From NCBI GenBank assembly GCA_009846005.1, contig VXYL01000054.1:1-33390 (forward strand): 33,390 bases of DNA, in the 5' to 3' direction. The translations under genes were made by a program, and so were the position numbers. The notes beneath the pieces are model-generated. The model saw only the letters and a list, made by a program, of their open reading frames with translations. It was not told where the DNA came from and made no database searches. This DNA is from Gammaproteobacteria bacterium. Its GTDB lineage: Bacteria; Pseudomonadota; Gammaproteobacteria; Pseudomonadales; Azotimanducaceae. This document shows, piece after piece, positions 21,185-24,865 of the stretch; within the stretch, counting starts at the first letter, position 1, and each line of letters opens with the position of its first letter.

Positions 21185-22058
21185 GAACAATGACACCGAG
21201 TCCGCCTCGGAGGCACCGGCTAGGGAGGCGCGGTTGTACATCGTGGCAACGCCGATCGGAAACCTGGCGGACATCACGCAGCGTGCGGTGGACGTCCTCA
21301 AGTCGGTACCGGTGGTAGCGTGCGAGGATACCAGACGCAGCGGGGTGTTGTTGGCGCACATCGGCGCGACCTCCAAACGACTGGTGGCGCTCCACGACCA
21401 CAACGAAGGGGCGGCAAGCGCGCAGATCGTCGAGTTTCTCCACGCCGGACAGGACGTCGCGCTAATCTCCGATGCGGGCACCCCGACGGTCTCGGATCCG
21501 GGTTTCGAACTCGTGCGGCTCGCCTGGGAATCCGGCGTCACCGTGACGTCGGTGCCGGGGCCGAGCGCGGTGACCGCCGCGGTGGCGGCGTCGCCGATTC
21601 CCGTCAACCGGTTCCGGTTCGAGGGCTTCCTTCCCGCCAGGGCAACGGCCCGACGGGAGGCGTTGAGGGGGATCCTCGCATCGGATGTAGCGGTGGTGTT
21701 CTTCGAGGCGCCGCACCGTCTGCGCGAGTCGCTGTCCGATCTGGTCGACCTCGGCGGCGGCGAGCGCACTTTGCTCCTCTGCCGGGAGTTGACCAAGTTG
21801 CACGAGACGCTGAGTGTCGGCACGGTCGCCGGCTTGCTCGCTTCGCCGACGATCATGGACCGTGGCGAATTCGCGTGCATTCTGGCACCAGCGCCGACCG
21901 CCGACGAAACGCTGTCGGCCCTCGCCGTCGTCGATGTGCTTGCCGCGGAACTACCGCCGGGCCAGGCAGCAAGGCTCGCGGCGAAGATCACCGGCGCATC
22001 GCGACGGATGCTCTACGAACGCGCCATCCGAACGGCTGCGCCTGCGCGCGACCCGTAG
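21183..22058 (+). CDS. rsmI: 16S rRNA (cytidine-1402 2'-O)-methyltransferase RsmI
   Basis: A 291-residue tetrapyrrole-methylase-fold enzyme that methylates the ribose of C1402 in the decoding centre. Conserved segments are LYIVATPIGNLADITQRA, CEDTRRSGVLL, LHDHNE, LISDAGTPTVSDPG, VPGPSAVTAAVAAS, FEGFLPA and LCRELTKLHE. The ATG at 21183 gives 17 residues before LYIV, close to E. coli. GGGGG at 21168-21172 may serve as ribosome site. Upstream in-frame starts (21024, 21138) would encode antisense of lpoA and are rejected. Downstream an accessory island separates it from rnpB, its usual neighbour. Confidence 0.96.
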   Translation: MNNDTESASEAPAREARLYIVATPIGNLADITQRAVDVLKSVPVVACEDTRRSGVLLAHIGATSKRLVALHDHNEGAASAQIVEFLHAGQDVALISDAGTPTVSDPGFELVRLAWESGVTVTSVPGPSAVTAAVAASPIPVNRFRFEGFLPARATARREALRGILASDVAVVFFEAPHRLRESLSDLVDLGGGERTLLLCRELTKLHETLSVGTVAGLLASPTIMDRGEFACILAPAPTADETLSALAVVDVLAAELPPGQAARLAAKITGASRRMLYERAIRTAAPARDP

Positions 22059-22183
22059 TACATGTCAGCTGCGGGTCAAACGCTAACCACCTGTGGCGGC
22101 GGGGGAATCGATCCAGGCGACGTGGGAGGTACCAAGAATAAGCGTGAGTCGTTTGCTGCGCGTTTTGCGTACCCGAGTAGTCA

Positions 22184-22208
22184 AATAACTCGCGTTATTC
22201 GACGTTAT
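22184..22208 (-). repeat. Left recombination-site-like palindrome of the recombinase gene
   Basis: Plus strand: AATAACTCG (22184-22192), then CGTTATT (22193-22199), then CGACGTTAT (22200-22208). Two imperfectly inverted arms with TCG/CGA inner ends flank an asymmetric 7-base centre, the architecture of a tyrosine-recombinase core site. On the minus strand the 17 bases from 22202 to 22186 match the right-hand copy with one mismatch. The site contains the recombinase stop codon TAA (22197-22195). The site role is inference from symmetry and position. Confidence 0.55.
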
Positions 22209-23343
22209 CACCACCGTTTCGCGGATTGCAAGCGCTTTCTGCAACTTTCTTCTCGTTGGTCTCGTCCCCTTCCTCGGCACCGCCCCGCAGCCGCGCCACC
22301 GCGCCCCGGGACGCTTCCTGGTTGCGCACGTAGTAGGCCGGCATCGACGACGACTTCCAGCGGCCGGCAACCTGCACGTCCACGAGCGACGCGCCCTCCT
22401 CCACCAGCGACTGCGCGGCGCCGACGCGCAGCGAGTGTCCCGACACGCGCCGGGTGATCCCGGCCTGGGCGGCCCGGCGCTCGATGACGGCGCGGACGGC
22501 GTCCGGGCCCAGCCGGGTCTTCCCGATGCGGCGGCCGGGCACGGGACGGAACAGCGGACCGGACTCGATCCCGGCGGTGTCCATCCACGTCCGCAGCCGC
22601 GCCGCCGCCGCAGGGACGATATGGCCCACCGCGCCGACCCCGTGCTGGTCCGTCTTGCTGCGCCGAATCGTGACGTGCGCCGAGCGGTCGTCCTGGAACG
22701 AAACGTCCCCGGCGTCCAGCGCCGACGCCTCGGCGATGCGGAGCAGCGCACTGGAAATGACGCCGATCAGCGCCGCGTCGCGGATTCCGCGCGGGTCCTC
22801 TGGAGCCTCGGCACATTTGCACATCCTGTCGGCGTCCTCCCAGCGCAGCGGGCCGGCCTGGCCGCGTCCCCGCCCGCCGCCCTCGCGGCGGAACCGCTCC
22901 AGCCGCCGCGCCGCCAGGCCTCCCGCGGGAGGCTCGGCGATTTCGTGCCCGGCCCGGGCCGACTCCAGGGCGGCGCGCTTGACGGCGGCGACCGCCGTCA
23001 CGGCGCTAGGGGGCGCCAGGCCCCTGTCGTACATCACGCCGAGGTAGCCGCCCAGCAGGCGGTCGGTCGGAGGCCGTCCGTCGAGCCACGACTCGTAGCG
23101 CCGGAGCTGGCCGACGTACGTCCTGCGGGTGTTCTCCGCCATGGCCGCATCCTCGAACAGGCGGACCGCCAGGTCGAAGTCCAGGTGCGGCACGACCTTG
23201 TCCGGCGCCGTCGCGGCCTCCGGCGGCCGGTCGGCTTCGGGCGTTCGGGCCGTTTCGGCAACGACGAAGACCACGGCGATCGGGCGTTCGGCGGGCGCGA
23301 CGGCTTCGGGCAGGCGATGCAGGCGTCGGGACATGGCTCTCAC
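22195..23343 (-). CDS. Cre-like tyrosine recombinase
   Basis: A 382-residue site-specific recombinase. The core-binding SAM-like domain (about 55-135) has NTRRTYVGQLRRYESWL. The catalytic set is complete: R202 (LLRIAEASAL), K230 (RRSKTDQ), H303 and R306 (SGHSLRVGAAQ), W329 (AGRWKS) and nucleophile Y338 (AYYVRN). The trio SGHSLRVGAA, W in place of the second histidine, and YYVRNQEASRGAVARL closely parallels phage P1 Cre (SGHSARVGAA, YIRNLDSETGAMVRL). GTG at 23343 has GGAG 8 bases upstream; an ATG three codons later is possible. Its stop is inside the left palindrome, and the right palindrome lies 17 bases before the start. Codon use is GC-richer than in the genes to its right. It is likely a transferred element; the natural role is unknown. 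Confidence 0.92.
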   Translation of the reverse strand: MRAMSRRLHRLPEAVAPAERPIAVVFVVAETARTPEADRPPEAATAPDKVVPHLDFDLAVRLFEDAAMAENTRRTYVGQLRRYESWLDGRPPTDRLLGGYLGVMYDRGLAPPSAVTAVAAVKRAALESARAGHEIAEPPAGGLAARRLERFRREGGGRGRGQAGPLRWEDADRMCKCAEAPEDPRGIRDAALIGVISSALLRIAEASALDAGDVSFQDDRSAHVTIRRSKTDQHGVGAVGHIVPAAAARLRTWMDTAGIESGPLFRPVPGRRIGKTRLGPDAVRAVIERRAAQAGITRRVSGHSLRVGAAQSLVEEGASLVDVQVAGRWKSSSMPAYYVRNQEASRGAVARLRGGAEEGDETNEKKVAESACNPRNGGDNVE

Positions 23344-23360
23344 TGGGGTGTCTCCACTTC

Positions 23361-23385
23361 GTTACTTCGGATAACGCGAGTTAAC
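23361..23385 (+). repeat. Right recombination-site-like palindrome of the recombinase gene
   Basis: GTTACTTCG (23361-23369), GATAACG centre (23370-23376), CGAGTTAAC (23377-23385). The arms match as inverted repeats at 7 of 9 positions. TCGGATAACGCGAGTTA (23367-23383) equals the inverted left copy except for one G/A. The centre is the same as on the left, so the two sites are in opposite orientation and recombination would invert the segment between them. It sits in the 5' region of the recombinase gene, so binding could also repress it. Confidence 0.55.
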
Positions 23386-23440
23386 CACGGTGACTGGCGG
23401 GTTGGTCGCGATAACTCATCCACTATCCATGGAGGAACGA

Positions 23441-23836
23441 ATGAAACACCTTGCCAAGTATCTTGCCGCACCTGCTGCGTTCGCATTCGCGTTTCTATTG
23501 GGCGGCACGCCGAGCGCACCGATCTCGGCCCTCCTGCCAACCGTAGGACAGTGCGCGTTTGCAGACGACGAAAACCCACCTGAGCCGGTCATGGATTGTT
23601 GGGACACGAGCGACCCGATGTACAACAGCGAATTGTGCAAAGAGGTTCGGGAAGGCGATTGTTGGGAAACAGCCGCGACCATAGGCACCGCCGGCATGGT
23701 GCTCGGATATGCTGGGGGATTGATGATGATGACTGGAGTTCTTGGGGGTCTTGGTGCAGGATTGGCGGGAGTAGCCCTCGTGTTAGATGCCGTTGCTGTC
23801 GGCGTAGGGGCGGCATGTTCGACTCAATTCGACTAA
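23441..23836 (+). CDS. Small exported Cys/Gly-rich protein of unknown function
   Basis: A 131-residue protein with a strong ribosome site (GGAGG at 23431-23435) before the ATG at 23441. A signal peptide (about residues 1-42, long, hydrophobic AAFAFAFLLGG, likely cleaved after QCAFA) precedes a mature part of about 89 residues. This has an acidic Pro-containing head, three cysteines in two DCW and one LCK contexts, then a very hydrophobic Gly- and Met-rich stretch (GMVLGYAGGLMMM, GVLGGLGAGLAGVAL) and a final CSTQFD. Codon use is less GC-rich than in the surroundings. I know no matching family. A Gly-rich hydrophobic mature peptide with paired cysteines recalls secreted bacteriocin-like or pore-forming peptides, but that is a resemblance only. 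Confidence 0.65.
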   Translation: MKHLAKYLAAPAAFAFAFLLGGTPSAPISALLPTVGQCAFADDENPPEPVMDCWDTSDPMYNSELCKEVREGDCWETAATIGTAGMVLGYAGGLMMMTGVLGGLGAGLAGVALVLDAVAVGVGAACSTQFD

Positions 23837-23852
23837 TGCTAATGCTTCGACC

Positions 23853-23972
23853 ATGACTAGGACGTTCCCAATAGTGACATGGCTTAAGCGCCTGGACCGT
23901 TTCGGGCTCTGGACGTTTCTGCTTGCTCCCATTCCGCTCGCGGTAGTGTTGCTCATGTGGTACGCGGCGTAG
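23853..23972 (+). CDS. Possible 39-residue single-span membrane peptide
   Basis: An ATG at 23853, 16 bases after the stop of the exported-protein gene, opens 39 codons ending in TAG. The peptide has a basic amphipathic N-terminus (TWLKRLDRFG) and one hydrophobic span (LWTFLLAPIPLAVVLLMWY), the layout of small membrane proteins. No Shine-Dalgarno is visible, so it may depend on translation of the upstream gene or may not be expressed. The pairing with a secreted peptide gene suggests a self-protection or anchoring role, which is only a hypothesis. Confidence 0.35.
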   Translation: MTRTFPIVTWLKRLDRFGLWTFLLAPIPLAVVLLMWYAA

Positions 23973-24045
23973 ACGAGCCCGAACCTTCCCATACGGTGTC
24001 CCACTTGTGGCTCGCCGTGATTCGGCTAGGCTGCTAGGCTTCGCA

Positions 24046-24416
<371 letters not shown>

Positions 24417-24568: not shown

Positions 24569-24865
24569 GTGCCCAGTCAGTCTTACAAGTTCGTTCTCCG
24601 GCTTCCCGCAGAACTTCGCGACCGGGTTGCGGAGGCTGCGGGGCTCTACCGTCGCAGCATCAACTCGGAGATCGTCGCGCGTCTCGAGCAGTCGCTGATG
24701 GGCATTCCGGAAGACGGGGCGGAACGGCGAGTCGAGCCGCCGTTTTTCGCGCAGATCGAGACCACCTTCAGGCGTGATCTCTCCGACGACGAAGATCGTT
24801 TGATCCGTCTCTACCGGCGTCTGTCTGTGCAGCAACGCAGGGCATTGGTAGACCTGTTGAGTTGA
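24569..24865 (+). CDS. Arc-family ribbon-helix-helix DNA-binding protein
   Basis: A 98-residue protein. Residues 7-43 (FVLRLPAELRDRV, then RRSINSEIVARLEQSL) match the phage P22 Arc fold, where the first strand inserts into the DNA major groove and NSEI starts helix B. The C-terminal half (about 55-98) is charged and helical, and would extend the dimer or bind a partner. The GTG start at 24569 has AGGGA 8 bases upstream. It lies between rnpB and the acyl-CoA cluster, 131 bases from the lyase gene, where two palindromes are found, so it may regulate that cluster. This link is inference. Confidence 0.85.
   Translation: MPSQSYKFVLRLPAELRDRVAEAAGLYRRSINSEIVARLEQSLMGIPEDGAERRVEPPFFAQIETTFRRDLSDDEDRLIRLYRRLSVQQRRALVDLLS

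Follow-up and report, generated by a model that had tools for sequence, protein, structure and literature searches.

The invertible segment of the Hin system is about 1 kb in length. The hin gene is described as located within this segment (PMC5903667), and in one orientation a promoter in the segment reaches the adjacent flagellin operon (PMC9368917). Among relatives of Cre, the enzyme/site pairs Nigri/nox and Panto/pox are described as having a simple inverted-arm site near the recombinase gene (PMC4957104). RIT elements carry tyrosine recombinase genes, are reported to have an inverted repeat with an overlapping palindrome at both ends, and are present in several copies in some strains (PMC3414803).

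The locus considered here lies in a 33,390-nucleotide stretch of contig VXYL01000054.1 from a gammaproteobacterial assembly; the whole of this stretch is referred to as the window. A Cre-like tyrosine recombinase gene is bracketed by two inverted sites and is followed, beyond the site at its start, by a gene with a hydrophobic leader. With confidence that is evenly balanced, and on the strength of sequence comparison, we propose that this may be a self-contained DNA inversion cassette, working in the manner of Hin/hix but with a Cre-like tyrosine enzyme. The features of the locus are:

22059..24021, strand not assigned: accessory stretch (unit plus neighbour gene) between rsmI and rnpB, with approximate ends from alignment with G010 and G005
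22180..23389, strand not assigned: whole unit, bounded by the left and right sites, with an inverted pair conserved in 25 of 26 copies
22180..22203, minus strand: left (stop-side) site, GTCAAATAA-CTCGCG-TTATTCGAC as read on the plus strand, including the recombinase stop codon
22195..23343, minus strand: Cre-like tyrosine recombinase, 382 aa, GTG start (Pfam Phage_integrase, 1.3e-17)
22202..22231, minus strand: predicted outward-facing promoter-like block, conserved, of the form TTGCAA-18-TAACGT, the second box preceded by TG, lying partly over the recombinase gene at its 3' end
23351..23355, minus strand: Shine-Dalgarno-like GGAGA of the recombinase, recognized in the sequence between the right site and the start
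23366..23389, plus strand: right (start-side) site, TTCGGATAA-CGCGAG-TTAACCACG, inverted with respect to the left site
23441..23836, plus strand: adjacent gene, 131 aa from the ATG at 23441, hydrophobic leader, no Pfam or NCBIfam match

The recombinase and its end sites

An initial annotation of the window had recognized the Cre-like recombinase gene, and this is confirmed by the Pfam match and by Cre being the nearest relative both by sequence (PDB) and by fold (Foldseek). The best PDB sequence matches are Cre (3.6e-14), with 27–28 % identity across half the protein. Residues R202, K230, H303, R306, W329 and Y338 are invariant in 19 aligned proteins, and the window recombinase was also aligned with Cre; we take these residues to be the catalytic set by assuming the roles of the R-K-H-R-W-Y residues of Cre. 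The AlphaFold model has a mean pLDDT of 71 (below 50 for residues 1–47) and a pTM of 0.55. When it was searched with Foldseek, ranks 1 to 29 were occupied exclusively by Cre and its derivative Tre, with E values down to 3.2e-12 and TM-scores of 0.45–0.55. As modelled, the protein has a predicted two-domain fold nearest to that of Cre, without an arm-binding domain. NCBIfam matches are of the Xer type and far under the cut-off; NF040815, the sole match with integron integrase in its description, is also far under the cut-off.

The start codon, GTG in the window, is ATG in most close relatives. Several copies of the family carry damaged genes: the recombinase frames of G003C175, G002C471 and G021C76 match in two pieces, that of G007C44 contains an internal stop, and those of G000C24, G010C11 and G003C73 have an early stop in the C-terminal tail.

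The 17-base sequences TCGAATAACGCGAGTTA (22186–22202, minus strand) and TCGGATAACGCGAGTTA (23367–23383, plus strand) are inverted relative to each other and are one base apart. Allowing up to three mismatches, the 17-base copies give three matches in the window, one of them being the left palindrome read on its opposite strand, and the same count in 100 dinucleotide shuffles of the window has a mean of 0.09 and a largest value of 1. The near-identical inverted copies reported at the edges of the gene are thus real, and the left copy does hold the recombinase stop codon (22195–22197). Two details of the earlier description needed correction. The distance between the right copy and the GTG at 23343 is 23 bases (32 to an ATG at 23334), rather than 17; in addition, comparison among relatives suggests, in place of the proposed 7-base centre RATAACG, arms of about 9 bp around an asymmetric 6-bp spacer, CTCGCG on one strand (22189–22194 and 23375–23380). 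These predicted sites do not match the lox-type 34-bp arrangement of 13-8-13.

At unrelated loci (G008C115, G008C143, G021C76, G000C24 and G003C175), a weakly conserved stretch containing a TGTCCGCG motif lies 50–80 bp beyond the left site, on its outer side. It is a candidate accessory site, terminator or piece of the inserted unit.

Distribution of the unit in related genomes

The recombinase was searched for in 97 genomes, comprising the window's own and 96 relatives, with at most 20 candidates scored per genome, so that some copies may have been missed. At E ≤ 0.001, 52 of the 97 were matched, many via distant recombinases only. Short pieces aside, matches of about 43 % identity or more came from the same genus and from G021 of another genus; matches below this level were left out of the comparison. 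Among the candidates scored, 31 stretches were compared (the window and 30 others), 26 of which are complete at both gene ends. The five fragments are G000C26, G014C201, G003C158, G002C587 and G003C183. The window's own genome holds three further family loci in four stretches (C24, C26 and C7, the last in two pieces), together with one distant recombinase; the truncated C7 copy was excluded from the site table. Six named family loci come from the three MAGs RHO3_bin_63, IRC1_bin_7 and COS4_bin_45, whose codes may point to sponge samples.

An inverted near-palindromic pair brackets the gene in 25 of the 26 complete copies, with centres 1.14–1.38 kb apart, and homologues therefore do not consistently lack the flanking palindromes, a possibility that the initial annotation had named as telling against its reading. 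In G006C109 the left site is present alone and the right site is missing. A blind search for 17-mer pairs found a pair in nine of 12 distant stretches (one of them a fragment) compared with 22 of 300 random spans. Core to core, the unit measures 1154–1219 bp (16 copies).

The viral contigs searched contained no recombinase relative and no exact site, and among plasmids (1814 records) and phages (28 records) every recombinase match was below 60 % identity.

Divergence of the sites and matching of their spacers

The sequence of the sites shifts with the recombinase clade. Close relatives have TTAA/ATAA arms and a CTCGCG spacer, the spacers of a second clade are CCCGCG, CCCGCT or GCCGCG, and distant clades have TCCGCT or TTCGCG spacers with other arms. 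Recombinases of this class require identical spacers in both partner sites. For relatives of Cre, a lack of cross-recombination has been put down to incompatible spacers (PMC4957104).

Compared in the inverted sense, the spacers of the two ends agree in 23 of 24 copies; compared in the direct sense, they agree in none of the 24. In G008C115 the spacers of the two ends disagree. Where spacers were scored between the arms only, agreement in the inverted sense was 17/18. The patterns by which the sites of 16 copies were found leave, at each end, spacer position 2 alone free, and the sites of the remaining copies were placed by the likeness of the two ends, so that the independent information in the spacers is smaller than these counts. 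At position 2, which was left free, the T/C difference between clades is matched at both ends in 16/16 copies, which are related and not independent. Two copies of the second clade, G003C235 (CCCGCT) and G002C502 (GCCGCG), each have one further change, again matched at both ends. Spacers that match in the inverted sense predict inversion rather than excision, and the comparison points to recombination of the two sites of a copy with each other, which would be an inversion. This change of spacer, matched at both ends in the inverted sense, is the strongest evidence for an inversion switch.

The 14-bp core of the window-type site, WTAACKCGMGTTAW, occurs at 30 places in the 10 genomes searched, and all 30 lie beside a recombinase gene or fragment; it was not found in G004, G005 or G012. 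The alternative that the palindrome is present without the gene at many unrelated loci is consequently not borne out. The idea that it is a pre-existing target or a host operator was likewise set aside, as in these 10 genomes no place lies away from recombinase genes or fragments.

The neighbouring gene

A signal-peptide-like frame within 350 bp past the start-side site, pointing away from it, is present in all 22 copies with enough right flank, compared with 2 of 24 beyond the stop-side site and 327 of 1500 random positions (22 %), as judged by a simple hydrophobicity score, which is not a signal-peptide predictor, at a threshold chosen after seeing the data. G000C24 and G002C471, with short flanks, were excluded. 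The kind of neighbour is constant; its sequence is varied. When the neighbour frames were compared, only five pairs were similar at E ≤ 1e-3. Some of the proteins have leaders or modules in common, and one has a weak SprT-like peptidase match, under the cut-off. The neighbour also differs between genomes at loci with orthologous left flanks (the window and G003C67; G003C73 and G010C11; G003C195 and G010C149). In these pairs, homology stops at the right site or within about 70 bp of it.

Some of the neighbours look mosaic, with a Cys-rich CPAGQH...HADHxC module joined to either of two C-terminal parts, one with HExxH (weakly SprT-like) and the other of an HSHP/HTHP type that is presumably JAMM-like (L009 256–1119; L112 3–752; L114 near the right end; L064, in G008C143). 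Five leaders, chosen by eye, end in sequences like PTVGGxAHA (window 23441–23570, G002C502, G007C44, G014C28 and G007C36), possibly a common sorting signal.

In five genomes searched, a dispersed 26-base repeat, CACACGCGATTCCGTTCCCACGTCTG (up to three mismatches), was found at 12 places in the window's own genome and at one in G003. It occurs at L112 1743–2380 and 2301–3686 (G000 contig C70), at L009 2366–2631 and beyond some neighbour genes. It was considered as a cassette end and rejected; it clusters instead beside a gene that we take to be a REP-associated transposase. A swap of neighbours on contig C24 was also discounted, because the right end of C24 overlaps C70 by 55 bp, apparently a point at which the assembly joined near-identical copies; this right flank was therefore not used as evidence.

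A promoter-like block at the stop-side end

In the initial annotation, a promoter over or outside the right-hand site was envisaged, which inversion could aim at the secreted-protein gene. A candidate for such a promoter was found, but at the stop-side end of the unit. Across 27 stretches, the TTGC of this block is intact in 26 and TAnnnT is present in all 27; in most cases TG precedes the second box and an A-rich sequence the first. Its distance from the site centre is constant within 1 bp in 26/27, and G007C44 also fits if its centre is corrected. The block continues through three reading frames and beyond early stops, which indicates that, for the close clade, protein constraint alone is insufficient. 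The block also codes for protein in distant clades, and although its first 60 columns have a mean identity of 93 %, some other windows of the gene equal or exceed this in the close clade; protein constraint may thus explain part of its conservation.

With a promoter matrix, outward-facing matches at p ≤ 0.05 were obtained at the stop-side end in 12/16 copies, and at the start-side end in 0/16 outward and 1/16 inward, the matrix frequencies being assumed and the copies homologous and not independent. The match is moderate, as the −10 box TAACGT agrees at three of six positions, and a strict sigma-70 consensus scan of 21950–24150 found no promoter and no terminator. Upstream of the neighbour gene, p ≤ 0.05 was reached in 0/23 copies as assembled and in 8/23 when the segment was flipped in silico. 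After this modelled flip, the best match upstream of the neighbour is the conserved block in 22/23, and the block sits 34–161 nt upstream of the secreted-protein gene in 20/23.

Genomic context and history of the copies

In the window, 1,988 bp separate rnpB (identified via Rfam RF00010) from the gene upstream, which we take to be rsmI; in 16 of 20 genomes this gap does not exceed 183 bp. The unit and its neighbour are therefore regarded as an accessory insertion. The inter-gene sequence at empty loci is too different for the ends to be placed, and no target duplication was noticed there. In G003, G011 and G002, rsmI was not found within the compared stretch upstream of rnpB, and G003 has a unit there. 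In G011 (L098) and G002 (L105), different DNA lies upstream of rnpB where rsmI would be expected, and the spot may be an insertion hotspot. Just past rnpB, the window encodes a small Arc-type DNA-binding protein (24569–24865; Pfam PF03869).

The tree of the elements disagrees with their loci. The window copy groups with G003C231, whose left flank matches that of C26, while the positional partner of the window, G003C67, groups with G003C73. G003C67 and G003C73 have a tract of 100 % identity within the element and unrelated flanks. Site-specific cassette exchange was considered as the cause of this mismatch and put aside, since in this best-resolved pair the identical tract inside the element makes ordinary gene conversion sufficient.

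The orientation of the unit with respect to the neighbour gene is identical in 22/22 copies, none being inverted, and with respect to orthologous left flanks it is identical in 14 copies forming six groups.

A proposed switch and its alternatives

In the switch that we propose, the recombinase would bind the two inverted sites that border its gene and recombine them, so that the 1.2-kb segment flips. In the assembled orientation, the stop-side block would fire outward into a host gene at its 3' end; having no recognizable promoter, the secreted-protein gene would be OFF by default. After inversion the block would lie upstream of the secreted-protein gene and could turn it on. The recombinase would then be co-directional with the upstream host gene (rsmI here), and read-through transcription could allow the segment to flip back. 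The paired sites, their divergence together with the enzyme, the matched spacer changes, the catalytic residues and the constant type of neighbour are observed; inversion itself, promoter activity of the block and its control over the neighbour are what we infer. More tentatively, and with rather less than even confidence, the family may represent a switch that can be copied: a single Cre-class gene would double as an invertible promoter cassette, present at several loci of a genome, with every copy directed at another fast-changing secreted protein and with enzyme and sites co-evolving towards separate specificities inside the same genome.

The strongest evidence against an inversion switch is the single orientation, as free inversion predicts that about half of the copies would be inverted. 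A bias towards OFF could explain this, because the recombinase would be promoterless in that state and served by read-through after a flip. The original suggestion that the enzyme flips its own gene is thus favoured by the matched spacer changes and opposed by the uniform orientation of all assembled copies, and the reading offered with it is, overall, partly supported.

The main rival is a minimal two-ended mobile element, similar to an insertion sequence or a one-gene RIT-like element, with the sites as its ends, excised as a circle and inserted elsewhere. It holds this position because joining of the ends in a circle would place the recombinase under this same block, supplying a promoter of which the assembled recombinase gene shows a likeness in only 1/16 copies. 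The several copies at unrelated loci within a genome are consistent with such an element, as are the emptiness of the rsmI–rnpB locus in most genomes and the similarity of paralogues, which begins and ends at both sites in the two pairs aligned through both ends; RIT elements, too, are described as ending in an inverted repeat and palindrome (PMC3414803). We nevertheless consider it unlikely. Canonical excision needs spacers that match in the direct sense, and a full match of this kind occurs in 0/24; the palindrome is absent from empty sites; the insertion between rsmI and rnpB includes the neighbour gene and so exceeds the length from site to site; and a signal-peptide-like neighbour in every copy that could be scored would not be expected of a free insertion sequence.

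An improbable alternative is that the sites are binding or operator sites regulating the recombinase and its neighbour, with recombination absent or vestigial. The fixed orientation would suit this explanation, as would the overlap of the right site with the 5' regions of both genes and the several copies with broken recombinases. However, the catalytic residues are invariant in the 19 aligned proteins, an operator at the stop codon would be unneeded, and matched changes of spacer are expected of recombining sites rather than of operators. Similarly improbable, finally, is an integron-like platform with a stationary recombinase gene and the right site as an attachment site capturing or exchanging secreted-protein genes: differing neighbours at orthologous left flanks, with homology ending at or near the right site, would fit, but inter-strain recombination at fast-changing genes yields the same pattern, the only integron-related profile match is NF040815, and this reading became a minor one because an array of further sites is absent, flanks of up to 5 kb containing no further window-type core (one mismatch allowed) except one in G002C13, which has one mismatch and adjoins a second recombinase fragment, and, of other site types, just two weak likenesses with three mismatches (G002C502 and G014C261).

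Comparison with known systems

A one-gene unit consisting of a tyrosine recombinase gene between inverted sites of its own was not noticed in a literature search that was thin on subscription journals and is weak evidence in this respect. The statement that a self-flipping, single-gene Cre-like unit is undescribed therefore stands to the extent that no description was noticed; a recombinase within its own segment is, however, known from the published account of Hin (PMC5903667). If flipping is true, this would be an example of a phase switch spreading within one bacterial genus, where it would stand at many loci next to secreted-protein genes of varied sequence. If it is not, some other explanation is required for the matched spacers and the outward block, for example a one-gene, circle-forming element. 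The family would also provide natural enzymes of the Cre-like kind whose predicted sites differ from one another within a single genome, and these could be of use as orthogonal recombination systems.

Cre/loxP, Nigri/nox and Panto/pox are the closest in enzyme, by sequence and fold, and have an inverted-arm site by the gene. Unlike the present family, with its two inverted sites on chromosomal contigs, they are described as having one site of 13-8-13 bp per candidate, in phage or plasmid sequences and a P1-like context (PMC4957104). RIT elements differ in having three recombinase genes and a length of about 3.5 kb, whereas the window unit has one gene in 1.2 kb. Integrons are set apart by an IntI-type integrase and an array of attC cassettes, neither of which is seen in the window family. 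In the UpaE element of uropathogenic E. coli and the RecV switches of C. difficile, inversion by a tyrosine recombinase is described as controlling surface proteins or flagella, in which they resemble the proposed switch. In both of these systems the recombinase gene is outside the inverted element.

The arrangement of the unit is most like that of Hin/hix at the Salmonella fljBA switch, where the recombinase gene is likewise inside a segment between two inverted sites. Hin, in contrast, belongs to the serine recombinases, has an enhancer bound by Fis and is known to invert its segment; the window unit encodes a Cre-like tyrosine enzyme, its gene fills the segment, several copies are present per genome beside varied neighbours, and its inversion is predicted. 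If the segment does flip, the unit would be a compact tyrosine-recombinase counterpart of Hin, in which the gene fills the switch.
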